A DNA stretch of 64,000 bases from Bacillota bacterium (GTDB lineage Bacteria; Bacillota; Sulfobacillia; JACIYH01): assembly GCA_040757085.1 (NCBI GenBank), contig JBFLXJ010000006.1, forward strand, positions 1 to 64,000. The letters run 5' to 3'. The position numbers and the translations under genes were made by a program. The notes under the pieces are model-generated. The model made no database searches. It worked only from the letters and a program-made list of their open reading frames with translations, and was not told where the DNA came from. Below, piece after piece: positions 15,107 through 53,680 of the stretch. The stretch's first letter is position 1; every line of letters starts with the position of its first letter.

Positions 15107-15222
15107 CTGCTTTCGGGGTGGCCATCCCAGGCGGCTGCCCATTTTTTCGACAAGGGTAATCCGCTGTGGTTGGCGAAAGTCTCTGCATGTTTCCCGCAGC
15201 GGCCCGGTCGGGAGGGTGTTCC

Positions 15223-16149
15223 ATGTACGACTTGCGGATAGTGGTTGAAGAAGTGAGGGGTTTTTGCGATATGCCCATGCGTCCCGGTGATTATTGCGAG
15301 CTCCGGGGCAGCCGCCTGTCGATTCCTGATGGGCGCTACTTTTGCATGTGGGCGCTGCAGAGCGTTCTCCCCCTGTTGCCGGTGAAGCAGCGGCGCATAG
15401 CCGAGGAAAACGACTGGATCCCCCGGACCTTCCGGGTGACCTGTCCGGATCCGGACGGTATGGTGATCCTCCGCATCGAGCAACTGGATGCCCGCGACCG
15501 GTCGCCCGTCGACCAACCGGGTGCACGGGGCGACTCGGCGGTCGAGCGACCGGCTCCAACTGGCCGGACGCTGGTCGAGCAGCCGAACGCGCGCCAGTGG
15601 ACTCCCGCCGAGGGGAACGAAAGGGGGCCGCTTCCCCGGATGCTGGTCAACAGCCGGATGTGTTCCGGCTGCCGGTCCTGTGAGCTGGCCTGCAGCTACA
15701 GGCACGAGGGAGTTTTTGCCCCTTCCCTCTCGCGTATCACGGTGAGAAAGGATGAGGTCGGGGGGGCGGACGAGCCCGTGGTGTGCCGTCAGTGCGGGGT
15801 GGCGCGGTGTGTGCAGGTGTGTCCCTGCGGTGCCCTGGCCCGCAACCCCCGGACGGGTGCGGTGCGGGTGGATGCCGGGTTGTGCATGCGGTGTGGAGAT
15901 TGCGTGGCGGCCTGTCCCTTCGGGGCCATCAGGATTCACCCCGACACCGCCCTTCCTCTCATCTGTGACCTGTGTGAGGGGGATCCTGCCTGTGTGGGCA
16001 GGTGCGCCACCGGGGCCCTGCGCTACGGCAGGGCAGGCGACCTCCGGCACGCGGCTGCGACCGGGCCGGGGGTGGCTGGTGAGGCGACTGCGGGTAGACG
16101 CAGGGACGGCGGTGCTGCTGAGTGCGAAGCCGGGGGTCAGGTGAAATGA
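15223..16149 (+). CDS. TIGR04076 domain fused to a four-cluster ferredoxin, AOR partner
   Basis: A 308-residue fusion. Residues 1-90 match the TIGR04076 family pattern: a short beta-strand start, GFCDMPMRPGDYCELRG, CMWALQSVLPLLP and TCPDPDGMVILRIEQL. A Pro/Arg-rich linker (about 90-140) leads to a DmsB/HycB-like ferredoxin with four cysteine sets: CSGCRSCELAC starting at Cys147, CRQCGVARCVQVCP, CMRCGDCVAACP and CDLCEGDPACVGRC. The ATG at 15223 has GGAGGG upstream; a longer frame starts at 15166 without a site. Its stop overlaps the AOR start (ATGA), so it is very likely the electron-carrying partner of that enzyme. The TIGR04076 function is unknown, and this fusion is unusual to me. Confidence 0.85.
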   Translation: MYDLRIVVEEVRGFCDMPMRPGDYCELRGSRLSIPDGRYFCMWALQSVLPLLPVKQRRIAEENDWIPRTFRVTCPDPDGMVILRIEQLDARDRSPVDQPGARGDSAVERPAPTGRTLVEQPNARQWTPAEGNERGPLPRMLVNSRMCSGCRSCELACSYRHEGVFAPSLSRITVRKDEVGGADEPVVCRQCGVARCVQVCPCGALARNPRTGAVRVDAGLCMRCGDCVAACPFGAIRIHPDTALPLICDLCEGDPACVGRCATGALRYGRAGDLRHAAATGPGVAGEATAGRRRDGGAAECEAGGQVK

Positions 16150-19470: not shown

Positions 19471-20040
19471 ATGACTGAGGGTCACAAGTGGTTGCTCCTG
19501 GTCTACAAGATCCCGCCCGAACCTTCACGGTACCGGGTGGCCGTTTGGCGGCGCTTGAAGGGAGCAGGGGCCGTCTACCTGCAGAACTCGGTCTGCGTCC
19601 TCCCGGATTCTGAGGCCAACCGTGACCTGTTCGGGGCCGTGGCCAGGGAGATCGAGGCCGCAGGCGGCGAAAGCTTGATGTTCCTGGCTGAAGCCTCAGA
19701 TCCCGCGGAGCAGGAGAGGGTGGTCGCGCGGTTCAACAGCGAGCGCGATGCGGAATACGGGGAGTTCCTCGAGCAGTGCGCGGCGTTTCTGGAGGAAATA
19801 CGTCGGGAAACCGAACGCCGGAACTTCACGTTTGGGGAACTGGAGGAAAACGACGAGAACCTCGAGAGACTGCGCGGTTGGCTGGGAAAGATTGAGGGGC
19901 GGGACTTCTTCGGTGCGGCGAGAGCACAAGAAGCCCGGGCGCGCCTGGGGGAGTGCCGGGAGGCCCTGGAGGCTTTTGCGGCGAGGATCTATGCGGCCAG
20001 CGAGGGGCAGGAGGTTGCGGGAGGCCGGGCGCCCGGGTAA
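19471..20040 (+). CDS. ChrB N-terminal domain-like protein
   Basis: A 189-residue soluble protein matching the N-terminal domain of chromate-resistance protein ChrB: a start of KWLLLVYKIPPEPSRYRVA, then VWRRLKGAGAVYLQNSVCVLP. The second half is highly charged and helical with a coiled-coil look (residues about 85-160). In proteobacteria ChrB regulates chrA; here no ChrA chromate exporter and no C-terminal ChrB domain is seen, so a link to chromate is doubtful. Such stand-alone copies occur in anaerobic Firmicutes and their function is not known to me. It is convergent with the PadR operon across a strong hairpin. Confidence 0.75.
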   Translation: MTEGHKWLLLVYKIPPEPSRYRVAVWRRLKGAGAVYLQNSVCVLPDSEANRDLFGAVAREIEAAGGESLMFLAEASDPAEQERVVARFNSERDAEYGEFLEQCAAFLEEIRRETERRNFTFGELEENDENLERLRGWLGKIEGRDFFGAARAQEARARLGECREALEAFAARIYAASEGQEVAGGRAPG

Positions 20041-20059
20041 GGCCGAACCGGCAGGTGAC

Positions 20060-20092
20060 GAGCAGGCTCCGGGGTTGCTCCGGAGCCTGCTC
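20060..20092. terminator. Bidirectional terminator-like hairpin
   Basis: A perfect 13-bp stem (GAGCAGGCTCCGG / CCGGAGCCTGCTC) with a 7-base loop lies between the convergent ChrB-like gene and the PadR operon. It has no U-tract on either side, like several other hairpins in this window. Confidence 0.6.
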
Positions 20093-20109
20093 CAATCTCA
20101 CGGTGTCGC

Positions 20110-20301
20110 TTAACCTTCGGTCTCCATGGCACGCAGTTCCTTCTCTACCTGGGCGGCTTCGGCCCTGAGTTCCTCCAGGTAGCGGCGCAGCCGCTCCACC
20201 CGCTCCTCGCGACTGAGGAAGCGCCGGTGGAAGTGGCCACCCCCACAGCACGTGTGCCAGGCGTGCCCGTGGTGGCGCGTGGCGGTTTGGCAACAGGACA
20301 T
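20110..20301 (-). CDS. Small Cys/His-rich coiled-coil protein, PadR partner
   Basis: A 63-residue protein. The first 25 residues are rich in Cys and His (MSCCQTATRHHGHAWHTCCG), enough for a small metal site. The remainder is a charged amphipathic helix (REERVERLRRYLEELRAEA) suited to a coiled coil. The ATG at 20301 follows one base after the PadR stop, and the GGGAGGTG site lies in the 3' end of the PadR gene, so the two are co-translated. Small proteins with a Cys- or Gly-rich head and helical tail are common beside PadR genes in anaerobes (DUF5320-like); identity with that family is a guess. Confidence 0.7.
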   Translation of the reverse strand: MSCCQTATRHHGHAWHTCCGGGHFHRRFLSREERVERLRRYLEELRAEAAQVEKELRAMETEG

Positions 20302-20302
20302 T

Positions 20303-20734
20303 TCATTCACCTCCCTCCCTTGTTCCTTCGTCACTGCCTGCGTGGGGAGCGGGTTTGCCCAAGATGCGGCGATACCGCTCCAGGTAAGATTCCAGGCGCT
20401 GTCGCTGCTGGTCCACGTCGGAGGCCCAGGCGTGGAGCAGTTCCCTTCCCGAATCGGTGAGCCGGTAGAGGCGCCGGGCAGGACCGCTTCCTTCCATGTC
20501 CCAGGTTGAAGTTGCCAGGCCGTCCTCCTCCATGCGGCGGAGGTTCCGGTACACCGTCCCCGCGTCCGGATAACTGCCGGCACCCATGACTTCACTCAGG
20601 CGTTCCATGAGCTCGTAGCCGTGGGCCGGCCTTTCCTCCAGCAACAACAGGAGCCACGCCTCAAGAAATCTCTCGCCCCGTCGGGGACGGCACCCGCACT
20701 CCCCGTGTCGGTGATCAGACTGCTCATCGCACAA
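20303..20734 (-). CDS. PadR family transcriptional regulator
   Basis: A 143-residue regulator. The winged helix spans about residues 20-100 with LEAWLLLLLEERPAHGYEL, GTVYRNLRRMEEDGL and RLYRLTDSGREL. A helical C-terminal dimerisation segment ends the protein. The N terminus is Cys/His-rich (MCDEQSDHRHGECGC), unusual for PadR, and resembles that of the small protein encoded next. The start is a TTG at 20734 with GAGGAGG eight bases upstream. A near-consensus promoter and a palindromic operator just upstream suggest autorepression, the rule in this family. The inducing ligand is unknown; a metal is possible given the two Cys/His-rich N termini. Confidence 0.88.
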   Translation of the reverse strand: MCDEQSDHRHGECGCRPRRGERFLEAWLLLLLEERPAHGYELMERLSEVMGAGSYPDAGTVYRNLRRMEEDGLATSTWDMEGSGPARRLYRLTDSGRELLHAWASDVDQQRQRLESYLERYRRILGKPAPHAGSDEGTREGGE

Positions 20735-20953: not shown

Positions 20954-21682
20954 ATGGGGGAAGCCGTACCCGGGCGATGCAGCAACTGTCCGGCGGCGTT
21001 GCCGGGCCGGCCCTTCGACTTCGTGGTCACAGGCGGCTACGTGGAACCCCTCGCCAGTTGTTCCCTGTTGCGTAATTACCGGGCGGGCCAGTTCATCCTG
21101 CGGGAGGGGGAACCGGCAGACGGACTGTACGTACTGCGCAAAGGGCTGGTCCGCATCTTCCTGCTCGACGAAGAGGGCCGGGAGCACACCATGCGGTTCG
21201 CGCATCCCGGCGATGTGATAGGTGGGTGTCAGTTCACCGGCAGGCGCCGGTTCAACTGCTATAGCGTGGTGGCGGTCAGCGACGCTGAGGTATGTCACTT
21301 CCCGGTGGCGTCCCACGGTGAACTGCTGGGACGCTGTCCGGAGCTTGCCCGCGCCCTGCTCGATGTGATGGCGGGCCTGCTGGACGAGTCTTACGTGCGC
21401 CTGCGGGAGCTGGCCAGCACCAACTGCCGGCAGCGCCTGGCCCGCTTGCTGGTGCGGCTCGCCGAGAGCCATATCGCTGGCGATGAGCAGCACCGCGGTC
21501 CGGATGAGCCGGTAACCATCCAGCTCCACCGCCAGCGGATGGCAGACATCCTGGGGGTCACCAAGGAGACGGCAGTCCGGGCCCTGTCGTCCCTGAAGGT
21601 AGCTGGCCTGGTAGAAACGCACGGGCGGGCCATCGTGATCAGGGACCTGCCCGCGCTGCGTCGCTTTTGCGGTCTTGGCTGA
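20954..21682 (+). CDS. FNR-like Crp/Fnr family regulator, possible [4Fe-4S] sensor
   Basis: A 242-residue regulator with an N-terminal Cys motif (Cys9-x2-Cys12, plus Cys36), a cAMP-binding-like beta roll (about 35-125) and a helix-turn-helix (HRQRMADILGVTKETAVRAL). Cys114 lies in EVCHFPV, which lines up with the VCEIPF segment holding Cys122 of E. coli FNR, a ligand of its oxygen-labile cluster. Together these make Fe-S sensing plausible, though the third N-terminal ligand is spaced differently from FNR. I chose the ATG at 20954, which follows GGGGGG with eight bases; a GTG at 20924 is also open. A good FNR box lies before the next operon, its likely target. Confidence 0.85.
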   Translation: MGEAVPGRCSNCPAALPGRPFDFVVTGGYVEPLASCSLLRNYRAGQFILREGEPADGLYVLRKGLVRIFLLDEEGREHTMRFAHPGDVIGGCQFTGRRRFNCYSVVAVSDAEVCHFPVASHGELLGRCPELARALLDVMAGLLDESYVRLRELASTNCRQRLARLLVRLAESHIAGDEQHRGPDEPVTIQLHRQRMADILGVTKETAVRALSSLKVAGLVETHGRAIVIRDLPALRRFCGLG

Positions 21683-21699
21683 GATCCCGCCGTTCTGCT

Positions 21700-21735
21700 C
21701 AACGGTACCCGCCGGGGGGTGCCCGTTGATCTTTT
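21700..21735 (+). terminator. Probable Rho-independent terminator after the FNR-like gene
   Basis: Arms CAACGG (21700-21705) and CCGTTG (21723-21728), with additional ACCC/GGGT pairing inside, are followed by ATCTTTTGTT. It is one of the few hairpins in the window with a U-run. Confidence 0.5.
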
Positions 21736-21789
21736 GTTGGGACGGTGCAGTCTATGGGTATGATACCGGGGTGGCGGCGCACCGGCAAA

Positions 21790-21831
21790 TTGACATTGAT
21801 CAATGAGCCCCGTTCTCGTGCGTGCTATCCT
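21790..21831 (+). promoter_or_regulatory. FNR box and extended -10 promoter
   Basis: TTGAC-ATTG-ATCAA at 21790-21803 matches the FNR consensus TTGAT-N4-ATCAA at 9 of 10 positions. TATCCT at 21826-21831 preceded by TGC gives an extended -10 element. With a start about seven bases downstream, the box centre falls at -41.5, the class II activator position. It precedes the oxidase-like and ctaB genes. Confidence 0.65.
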
Positions 21832-21944
21832 TCAGGCAGCGCCACGCCACCCAAACGTATACCACCGGGGCGGGCGGAGTGCCCCGGGACGGCCCCTTGC
21901 CGGTTTCTCGCGGTGGCGCGTGTGGCAGGGCAGGAGGTGATGGG

Positions 21945-23402
21945 ATGTCAGGACTCGGCAAGCGGCTCCATTACCTGTTCGCGACCACGCACGGTCTGCT
22001 GCTGATGGCCACCGCCTGGGACGCCCTGCTGGTGGCTGTGCTCTCCACGCTTTCCGGACCCCTCCTTGAACTGGGGATCGCGGCTGCCCTTCCCTTTCGG
22101 TTGGTGGAGGGAGAGGCGGTGGGGCGCAAGATCATGCTCTACCACTCCCTGGCCATGCCCTTCGTGGCAGCCATCACCTACCTGATCCTGGATCTGGTGC
22201 CCACCAGTCCCTGGCACGTGCGTACCGTGCGCACCGCCGCCACGGTCGGGTACATGGTGAGCAGCCTGGCCGGGCTGGCCTTTGCTTACCTGGTCCGCAG
22301 CTGGATCCTGCACGGTCTCTTCGTCGCCGGCCTCGTTCTCATGTTTTATGCCGGGGTGGTGCTGGCCCACGGGCTTTGGCCGCCCCGTCACCCGAACCCC
22401 CATCCCGCCTATGCCCGGTGGGGCAGGATTTCCCTGGAGCGGGTGGCCTTCTTCACGGTGACCGTGCTCACCCTCGGTTCAGCCGCCCTGGGTGCGGGCG
22501 CGGGGGCCTACTTCGGTAACGGATTCGAGGCATTCCTGGCTGAGGATGCCATCCGGGCACCGCACCACACGGTGGCCCAGCTGGCCGTCATCGGGCACCT
22601 GCACATCATGCTGGCTCTGATTGCGGTGGCCATCATGCTCCTGGTGGGACGCTACCTGGACTTCAAGGGTCCCCTGCACCGTGTGGCCATGCCCATAGCC
22701 ATCGCGGGCAGCACCATCATGGCGCTGGCGTGCTGGTCGGTGATGGTGTGGGAAGCAGCGCACAAGGCCATCTACGTCGGTGCGGCCCTGGTACTGCCGG
22801 CCGCCCTCCTTCTGGTGATATACGGATGGTGGGAGGCTGCGCGCGGGGCGGCCCCCGGCCGGCGGCTGGCGGCCGTGGCGGGTGATCCCCTGTACTTTGG
22901 CATGCTGTTTCAACAGGTGTTTGTCAACTTCGTGGTGACGTTCCCCGGGATGTCCGTGGCCTTCAACCTGGACGATTACTTCCGGGTTATCCCCGCTGAG
23001 TACGAGCGCCGCTTCCTGAGCGGTCACTGGCACGTGCTGGCCGCACTCTGCGCTACGATCATGATCTTTCTGGTGGCGGACTACCTGGGGCAGCAGGGAT
23101 GGATCCGCCGTGCCCTGGGATGGGGCGTACTGGTGGGTGGCGACCTCGCCTTCACCTTCGCCGTGGTGTACATGTTCGGGCCGCCCGGGGTCGACGTGAC
23201 GTGGACGTGGTGGTTCATCGACGCGGGCCTGGGGACGTTCCTGGTGGTGTTGGCCATTTTCCTGGGGTGGCGCCTGGTGGACCTCCTCCGGGTCCGGGGC
23301 GACTGGTCGCGCCACCTGGCGCTGGCTGCGGCTTCCGCGCGGGGGATTAGCGAGCCGCGGTCGGCGGTTGCCGGGTCGGAATCTGCGGGGTGGCAGGCAT
23401 GA
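21945..23402 (+). CDS. Heme-copper-oxidase-like polytopic membrane protein
   Basis: A 485-residue protein with about twelve predicted membrane helices. Its pattern is reminiscent of subunit I of heme-copper oxidases or NO reductases. Histidines fall in membrane segments: His16, His67, His207-His208 (APHHTVAQL), His218/His220 (GHLHIML) and His361/His363 (GHWHVLAAL). These could bind hemes and perhaps a metal, but the canonical order of the oxidase ligands, including the HxxxY of the copper site, is not seen. GGAGGTGATGGG precedes the ATG at 21945. The next gene encodes heme O synthase and overlaps slightly, which supports a heme protein. It might reduce O2 or NO, or be a non-catalytic heme carrier; this remains open. 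Confidence 0.6.
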   Translation: MSGLGKRLHYLFATTHGLLLMATAWDALLVAVLSTLSGPLLELGIAAALPFRLVEGEAVGRKIMLYHSLAMPFVAAITYLILDLVPTSPWHVRTVRTAATVGYMVSSLAGLAFAYLVRSWILHGLFVAGLVLMFYAGVVLAHGLWPPRHPNPHPAYARWGRISLERVAFFTVTVLTLGSAALGAGAGAYFGNGFEAFLAEDAIRAPHHTVAQLAVIGHLHIMLALIAVAIMLLVGRYLDFKGPLHRVAMPIAIAGSTIMALACWSVMVWEAAHKAIYVGAALVLPAALLLVIYGWWEAARGAAPGRRLAAVAGDPLYFGMLFQQVFVNFVVTFPGMSVAFNLDDYFRVIPAEYERRFLSGHWHVLAALCATIMIFLVADYLGQQGWIRRALGWGVLVGGDLAFTFAVVYMFGPPGVDVTWTWWFIDAGLGTFLVVLAIFLGWRLVDLLRVRGDWSRHLALAAASARGISEPRSAVAGSESAGWQA

Positions 23403-24343
23403 ACGGGGGCAATACCGTGGTGGCGGTCCCGACCGGCGCGGGCGCGGGGAGGGTGCGGCGGGCAAGCCGGGCGGTGGCCATGGTGGAAGCTACCAAGCTC
23501 CGCTCGGTAGTGCTCCTCACCTTCGTGGGATTGGCAGCGGGAATCTACGTGCTGTTCACCGTGGTACCCCCGGGTGAGCGCTCACGGGCATCGTCGCGTC
23601 TGTTGCTGAGCACGCTGGCGGTGCTCGCAGGGAGCATGGGGACAAATGCCATCACCGGTTACATCGATCGCCGCATGGACGCCACCATGGCACGCACGCG
23701 GCACCGTCCCATCCCTTCGGGGCGCCTGGCACCCGGAGAGAGCTTGGGGCTGGGCGTGGGACTGGTCGCAGCAGCTACTATGCTGACCGTCCTGACCGGG
23801 CATCTCTGGAGCACCATCTGGCTGTTATTCGGGGTGGCCGACGTGGCCCTGGTTTACAACGGCTGGTCCAAGCCCAGGACCGCGTGGAACGTCATCCTGG
23901 GGTCCCCGGGGGGAGGGGCGCCGGTCATGGTGGTGACGGCTGGCGTAACCGGCCAGGCGGCTAGCCCGGCAGCACTGTTGCTGGCGGCCCTGGTGGTGGC
24001 GTGGACGCCCATCCACGTGTGGAGCCTGGCCATCCGGTACGTCGATGATTACCGGCGGGCAGGGGTGCCCATGCTGCCCGTGGCCATAGGGGTGGAAAAG
24101 GCCTCCCGCTGTGTGGGTTGGACCGCCGTGGGCCTGTGTGCGCTGGCATCGGCCCTGCCCGCCGTGGTCCGACTGGGTGCGGTCGGCACCCTGCTGCTGG
24201 CAGCCATGCAGCTTCCGGTGCTCGCCATGAGTGTAGCGGTTATGCTGCGGCCCACCCCGGAACGGGCGTGGCTGCTCTTCAAGCTGAGTAGTCCGTACCT
24301 GGCTGGCCTCTTCCTGCTCGTGGCCATCCGCCCTGTAATTTGA
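23399..24343 (+). CDS. ctaB: Protoheme IX farnesyltransferase (heme O synthase)
   Basis: An approximately 315-residue UbiA-fold membrane prenyltransferase. The first Asp-rich motif reads NAITGYIDRRMDATMARTRH followed by RP, which is the CtaB form, and the second is IRYVDDYRRAGVPMLPV, also CtaB-like rather than UbiA or MenA. It would convert protoheme to heme O for a terminal oxidase. Its start lies within the last bases of the oxidase-like gene (ATG at 23399), so the two are co-translated. No ctaA (heme A synthase) is seen. Finding heme O synthesis beside ferredoxin-based anaerobic genes suggests micro-oxic respiration or oxygen/NO detoxification. Confidence 0.88.
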   Translation: MNGGNTVVAVPTGAGAGRVRRASRAVAMVEATKLRSVVLLTFVGLAAGIYVLFTVVPPGERSRASSRLLLSTLAVLAGSMGTNAITGYIDRRMDATMARTRHRPIPSGRLAPGESLGLGVGLVAAATMLTVLTGHLWSTIWLLFGVADVALVYNGWSKPRTAWNVILGSPGGGAPVMVVTAGVTGQAASPAALLLAALVVAWTPIHVWSLAIRYVDDYRRAGVPMLPVAIGVEKASRCVGWTAVGLCALASALPAVVRLGAVGTLLLAAMQLPVLAMSVAVMLRPTPERAWLLFKLSSPYLAGLFLLVAIRPVI

Positions 24344-52978: not shown

Positions 52979-53680
52979 ATGGTCGATGGGAGACGCGTCC
53001 TGGAGCGCTGGACAGACGAGCAGGTCTGGGAGATACCGCTGACGCTCGACGAGCAGGAAGAGAACGCCTTCTGCCGGAAGGCTACCCGCGTATTTTACCC
53101 TCGCGGGCACGTGATCTTCGCTCCGGGCGACGAAGCGGGACGCGTCTATTTTATCCACACGGGCGTGGTGAAGATTTGCTGGCTGTCGCCCCGCGGCCAC
53201 GCAGTTACCATGGCTATCCGCTATCCCAGGGAGCTGTTCGGCCTGGCAGAAGCTCTGTGCTGCCTGGACAGGAAGTGTTACGCCCAGGCCCTCGAGAACA
53301 CCGAATGCTATGTGATTCGGAGGCCCGAGTTCGAGCTGTTGTTGAGAGAAGAGCCAGATCTCTGTTTGAAGGTGGCCCGGGTGCTGGCAGCAAGGCTCAG
53401 GCAGGCCCAGCTGAGCATTTGTGATTTCGTGCGCTATCAGGTGCCGGCCCGGCTGGCTCTGCTGTTGCTCCGGCTGGCATACCAGCACGGGACCCCCAGC
53501 AAAGAGGGGATAGAACTCCGCTGGAGCTTGACCCATCAGGAGATCGCGTTTATGGTGGGAGCTTCGCGGCAGAGCGTGACCTCTGCCTTTAACGCATTCA
53601 AGAAGCACAGGCTGATCCGTGTGGAGCGCGACCGCGTACAGATTCTCAATCCGCAGGCTCTTGCGGAATGGATAACCTGA
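52979..53680 (+). CDS. Crp/Fnr family transcriptional regulator
   Basis: A 233-residue regulator. The effector domain (about 30-140) contains FYPRGHVIFAPGDEAGRVYFI and a Cys-rich loop LAEALCCLDRKCYAQALENTEC. The DNA-binding helix-turn-helix is LTHQEIAFMVGASRQSVTSAF near the C terminus. It lacks the FNR N-terminal Cys pair of the regulator at 20954, so a different signal is likely; the CC...C...C loop might bind a metal, heme or redox ligand. It stands directly before the DASS/Apr-like/Hdr genes and is their probable regulator. A palindrome at 53763-53779 lies between. Confidence 0.85.
   Translation: MVDGRRVLERWTDEQVWEIPLTLDEQEENAFCRKATRVFYPRGHVIFAPGDEAGRVYFIHTGVVKICWLSPRGHAVTMAIRYPRELFGLAEALCCLDRKCYAQALENTECYVIRRPEFELLLREEPDLCLKVARVLAARLRQAQLSICDFVRYQVPARLALLLLRLAYQHGTPSKEGIELRWSLTHQEIAFMVGASRQSVTSAFNAFKKHRLIRVERDRVQILNPQALAEWIT

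Follow-up and report, generated by a model that had tools for sequence, protein, structure and literature searches.

What does a cysteine-bearing Crp/Fnr-family regulator control when the gene that follows it encodes a large membrane protein of a family that standard family libraries miss? This arrangement occurs in a 64,000-nucleotide stretch of DNA from a Bacillota bacterium (hereafter, the window), where the following features succeed one another:

20954–21682, + strand: Crp/Fnr-family regulator, 242 amino acids (cNMP_binding 4e-19, HTH_Crp_2 1.4e-16)
21790–21803, + strand: box TTGACATTGATCAA, FNR/HcpR1-type, centre 21796.5 (pattern search; kept upstream of homologous operons)
21823–21831, + strand: extended -10 TGC-TATCCT, predicted start ~21838 (sequence geometry, comparative register)
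21945–23402, + strand: heme-copper-oxidase-fold (HCO-fold) membrane protein, 485 amino acids, 12 transmembrane helices (AlphaFold2, Foldseek, 87-member alignment)
23399–24343, + strand: CtaB-like (heme o synthase-like) UbiA-family prenyltransferase (PF01040, 7.4e-38)

A ribosome-binding site, AGGAGGTG, precedes the ATG of the HCO-fold gene, which shares a 4-bp overlap (ATGA) with the CtaB-like gene. At 19471–20734, adjoining the regulator gene, we found a ChrB N-terminal-domain gene, a small His/Cys-rich ORF and a PadR regulator gene, the last on the opposite strand. Elsewhere in the window (15166–16149), a TIGR04076-family domain is fused to a 4Fe-4S dicluster ferredoxin, with an aldehyde ferredoxin oxidoreductase gene directly downstream.

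A conserved box in class II register

Box TTGACATTGATCAA is the sole TTGAY-N4-RTCAA match in the window, where 0.06 would be expected and 5 of 100 shuffles contained the pattern. Across the host genome, the same pattern occurs 8 times, versus 3 in a reversed control; a one-mismatch genome scan returned 35 matches against 42 in its control and was dropped. The hexamer of the extended -10, TGCTATCCT, begins 23 nt after the box, which places the box centre at -41.5 if the hexamer begins at -12. The sequence-only reading had placed the box 41.5 bp ahead of a start derived from this extended -10, and both the coordinates and the spacing agree with the sequence geometry. Taken alone, the window geometry is suggestive and the host genome count weak.

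What makes the suggestive geometry firm is the register of the box among relatives. We gathered homologues of the HCO-fold protein from 101 related genomes, 11 of which were positive, and from public genome contigs, where 266 matching stretches revealed a widespread family and 80 relatives were kept; the cultivable Thermanaerothrix daxensis is one of the carriers. In the box-bearing loci, a -10-like hexamer follows the box at an offset of 23 nt in 21 cases and of 24 nt in 7. Of the 24 boxes that lie before homologous operons outside the host genus, and that are not fully independent because some come from one genome or phylum, 15 have a TANNNT at offset 23 and 3 have it at offset 24, while the largest count in 500 shuffled trials was 5. 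The extended form TGNTANNNT is in register at 12 of these 24 boxes (largest shuffled count, 2). Of the 11 full module loci in relatives, 8 have the box close to their HCO-like gene, as do many loci in Chloroflexota, and the -10 register after the box is conserved across Bacillota and Chloroflexota. In relatives the box typically reads TTGAC-N4-GTCAA, from which the window box differs by a single G-to-A change in the right half-site, and most of these boxes match the HcpR1 motif TTGACnnnnGTCAA exactly.

The predicted geometry and the comparative register together give the layout of a class II Crp/Fnr-activated promoter, that is, a box near -41.5 over the -35 region. The class II-type arrangement claimed earlier is thus borne out for the predicted start, being conserved across genera and phyla, and, judged from these sequence comparisons, TTGACATTGATCAA is a real, conserved regulatory site and a class II-type operator.

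The regulator is a divergent relative of FNR

Both PF00027 and PF13545 score above cut-off in the 20954–21682 regulator. Alignment to Escherichia coli FNR confirmed the N-terminal CxxC and the Cys122 equivalent that had been read from the sequence: Cys9-x2-Cys12 aligns with FNR Cys20/Cys23, and Cys114 with Cys122. The same alignment gave no counterpart of the third FNR cysteine, Cys29, and showed FNR Ser212 replaced by Val, two points that the sequence-only reading omitted. In the recognition helix (VTKETAVRAL), the equivalents of Glu209 and Arg213 are kept alongside this Val. The FNR family score is 61.6 bits, against a cut-off of 228. The window regulator shares Cys9, Cys12, Cys92, Cys102 and Cys114 with all four of its nearest homologues, while more distant Bacillota regulators carry a CxxC-x8-C pattern and often lose Cys114. 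The label of an FNR-like sensor thus holds for the Crp/Fnr domains, the CxxC and the Cys122 equivalent; it does not extend further because one of the four cluster cysteines is missing, Cys92 and Cys102 are conserved instead, and the family score is far below the FNR cut-off. Given the cysteine pattern of this regulator and its relatives, redox or NO sensing is plausible.

Of the related genomes' 11 full module loci, 9 contain a homologue of the regulator. The Chloroflexota operons are adjoined by another Crp/Fnr regulator, which is cysteine-free and sits ahead of the same box, a point against the mechanism proposed below. Only one more Crp/Fnr-like protein turned up in the host, and it has no Glu/Arg pair for recognition. 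On this ground we rejected the window's other Crp/Fnr gene (52979–53680; recognition helix GASRQSVTSAF) as box binder; that gene adjoins ior and acyl-CoA synthetase-like genes. A second local regulator of a congener is reduced in the host to a 69-residue remnant.

A predicted heme-copper-oxidase fold with an altered set of histidines

An AlphaFold2 model of the 485-residue protein (pTM 0.85) displayed 12 membrane helices and, in Foldseek, matched heme-copper oxidases along its whole length, with cbb3 subunit I as the best structural match (VIA; Z 24.8, rmsd 3.7 Å, 392 residues). Sequence-profile searches in Pfam, NCBIfam and the PDB gave no match for the protein, and none of the 13 family members tested matched Pfam COX1. 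A profile-profile comparison with qNOR, cbb3 and aa3 of the same genomes, for which the template profiles were shallow, yielded nothing significant.

In the 87-member alignment, His67, His123, His218, His220, His273, His361 and His363 are invariant or nearly so. Five histidines fall on canonical ligand positions (GR-x5-H, GH, AH and GHxH), an assignment made by helix order and motif from the sequence, with cbb3 motifs taken from general knowledge and one cbb3 sequence. The first residue of the canonical His-His pair is Ala272, Ala in 98% of the family, which leaves the family short of the six canonical histidines, and His123 and His220 are additional invariant histidines beyond those positions. 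At the helix VI position of the FeB glutamate in NOR, the family conserves no glutamate, which counts against an NO-reducing role. The description of the target as heme oxidase-like stands at the level of the fold but not beyond it, and the predicted heme-protein target is supported. We consider the target, on this modeled fold, to represent a new heme-copper-like family with a putative catalytic activity. Our search of the open-access literature turned up no description of an HCO-fold/CtaB-like operon. In-frame TGA codons noted in homologues proved to be normal terminal stop codons.

Heme supply and nitrogen-oxide enzymes accompany the operon

The CtaB-like protein belongs to PF01040 by score, and its best NCBIfam matches are heme o synthase models (TIGR01473, 174 bits; cut-off 210). 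Such a gene is found in 78 of the 87 loci of the HCO-fold family, as is a SUMF1-type gene (PF03781 for the one member tested), and a small membrane-protein gene is found in 70. Most loci encode the SUMF1-type protein as a separate lipoprotein, while in several Bacillota (L036, L030 and L032) this domain is fused to the C terminus of the HCO-fold protein; the SUMF1-type gene is missing from the operon of the host genus.

Exact boxes also precede other genes. On host contig C17, a box lies upstream of a gene for a 7-helix membrane protein that partners the 21945 operon in relatives; its structure model is confident, with PDB matches only to generic 7-helix bundles. On contig C23, a box lies upstream of the genes ahbD-ahbC-ahbA-ahbB: the first encodes a radical-SAM protein whose closest resemblance is to AhbD, the second is AhbC-like, and AhbA and AhbB score above curated cut-offs. 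Congeners share both the box before the 7-helix gene and that before the AhbDCAB heme-b operon, and each of the three genus members keeps the ahbD box. In other genera, the box precedes CtaB-like genes (two genera; L145 and L147) and HemL (L142). These recurrences place the heme biosynthesis genes in the same predicted regulon as the HCO-fold operon. Further exact matches in the host and other genomes sit within coding sequence or ahead of unrelated genes; with several boxes inside coding sequence, the bare pattern is not specific and not every match is functional. Two further exact boxes in the host are only possibly functional: one (G000:C20:23798; L005) precedes a short zinc-ribbon ORF with an aldehyde ferredoxin oxidoreductase gene behind it, the other (G000:C28:63808; L007) a Cas6-like gene.

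Congener modules have NrfA and a protein with a nitrite/sulfite reductase domain as neighbors; one congener also has qNOR there. Among the 101 genomes, qNOR-type proteins, assigned by score and frame length, occur in 7 of 11 module genomes versus 10 of 90 others, and NrfA in 4 of 11 versus 6 of 90. Either one is present in 9 of 11 module genomes versus 14 of 90 others (p 1.6e-5, a statistic that ignores phylogeny). O2-reducing COX1 showed no association with the module in the same 101 genomes (5/11 versus 43/90, p 1). Because the module co-occurs with qNOR or NrfA and not with O2 reductases, a nitrogen-oxide role is favored over an oxygen role for the operon.

In the host itself, we found no COX1-family oxidase and no cytochrome bd, leaving the CtaB-like enzyme with no other evident client. 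The host also has no qNOR, and its own NrfA is a pseudogene fragment, which counts against the nitrogen-oxide reading. A decayed second copy of the locus is located on host contig C17 (L035:8348-9557; G000:C17:334549-335161). It comprises a truncated HCO-fold gene with an intact box, broken NrfA fragments and the 69-residue Crp/Fnr remnant; next to it, the gene for the 7-helix protein is intact and has a box of its own.

A proposed mechanism and its alternatives

We infer that a dimer of the neighboring cysteine-bearing Crp/Fnr regulator, which may sense redox state or NO through a cluster or otherwise, binds TTGAC-N4-(G/A)TCAA centered at -41.5, overlapping the -35 region. The bound regulator would recruit RNA polymerase to the extended -10 and switch on the 21945–24343 operon. 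In the host, the same box would co-activate the 7-helix membrane-protein gene (C17) and the siroheme-to-heme-b operon (C23), so that hemes b and o would be produced along with the heme protein. The HCO-fold protein would be a divergent fold member nearest cbb3/NOR, with His67 and His363 as putative low-spin ligands, His361 as the putative high-spin ligand, and a modified B-site formed by His218, His273 and perhaps His220. It would most likely reduce or detoxify nitric oxide, or otherwise serve nitrogen-oxide metabolism. We judge this explanation as a whole, from class II operator and adjacent regulator to heme co-supply and an HCO-fold protein acting on NO or a nitrogen oxide, to be reasonably probable. 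More tentative, and somewhat short of an even call, is its generalization: that Chloroflexota, Bacillota, Aminicenantes and others harbor undescribed heme-copper-fold enzymes with a non-canonical B-site (Ala-His and extra histidines), that these enzymes act on NO or some other oxide of nitrogen, and that a conserved class II regulon of the Crp/Fnr type induces them together with their heme supply.

Alternatively, the locus could reflect microoxic oxidase control of the kind that FixK/FNR exert on cbb3, with a [4Fe-4S] oxygen-sensing regulator and an operon encoding a high-affinity oxygen reductase or an oxygen-detoxifying protein in an anaerobe. The nearest fold match, the regulator's CxxC and Cys122 equivalent, and the FNR-type class II promoter would all fit such a scheme. 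Yet the family conserves no tyrosine where cbb3 has one in helix VII and has none of the HPEVY type in helix VI, the His-His pair has lost one His to Ala, the module is not associated with O2-reducing oxidases, and the motif is that of HcpR1 for NO (PMC1274295); we therefore hold oxygen control to be unlikely. We are rather doubtful, too, that the HCO-fold protein is no terminal reductase at all but a heme-bearing membrane protein for electron transfer, sensing or assembly, working with the 7-helix protein and the SUMF1-type lipoprotein. The non-canonical histidine set, the SUMF1-type lipoprotein and small membrane proteins that constantly accompany the HCO-fold protein, and an operon without a cytochrome c or CuA subunit are what one would expect of such a protein, but the family keeps both GHxH histidines and, in helices II and VI, the ligand positions found in catalytic members, and a dedicated CtaB-like gene is retained across most loci. 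Extremely improbable is a box that is a chance palindrome, with the regulator acting elsewhere: the pattern counts in the host, including matches within genes, would allow it, but the exact -10 register at 15 of 24 sites outside the genus and the conservation of the box before homologous operons in two phyla argue strongly against it.

Relation to known systems

The locus resembles E. coli FNR and its class II promoters in the Crp/Fnr domains, the CxxC, the Cys122 equivalent, the TTGA half-sites and the -41.5 centre. It differs in the absent Cys29 equivalent, in Ser212 and Val208 being replaced by Val and Lys, in the score far below the FNR cut-off, and in a half-site of TTGAC instead of the TTGAT of E. 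coli FNR. The nitrosative-stress motif TTGACnnnnGTCAA of HcpR1 in delta-proteobacteria and cyanobacteria controls hcp, frdX and norB (PMC1274295), and the likeness to HcpR1/DNR regulons lies in this box consensus (HcpR1) and in targets of nitrogen-oxide metabolism. HcpR and DNR lack FNR-type cysteines, whereas the window regulator has the CxxC and the Cys122 equivalent, and the target here is an unrecognized HCO-fold operon together with heme biosynthesis.

With cbb3 oxidase (CcoN) and c/q-type NOR, the HCO-fold family shares the 12-helix fold, the helix II His, the helix VI GH, the helix X GHxH and Crp/Fnr-type regulation. Unlike them, it shows no HMM-detectable sequence similarity, has Ala first in the His-His pair and the extra invariant His123 and His220, and has no conserved Glu or Tyr at known catalytic positions. 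In nir clusters, a NirV/SUMF1-type protein is encoded beside a nitrogen-oxide redox protein. Similarly, in relatives of the host a SUMF1-type protein is encoded beside, or fused with, the HCO-fold protein; the difference is that its partner here is the HCO-fold family and that the operon of the host genus has none.

The site that was first read from sequence alone proved to be a phylogenetic footprint, one that links heme supply with a widespread family of membrane proteins. If the HCO-fold protein reduces NO, NO turnover would have been overlooked in many anaerobic Chloroflexota and Bacillota because gene surveys seek COX1-type reductases. If it has another function, its altered metal site within a heme-copper fold would still bear on the diversification of the superfamily. 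A 26%-identical paralogue subfamily (L034:8173-9444), in a locus without CtaB or regulator homologue, keeps all seven histidines.
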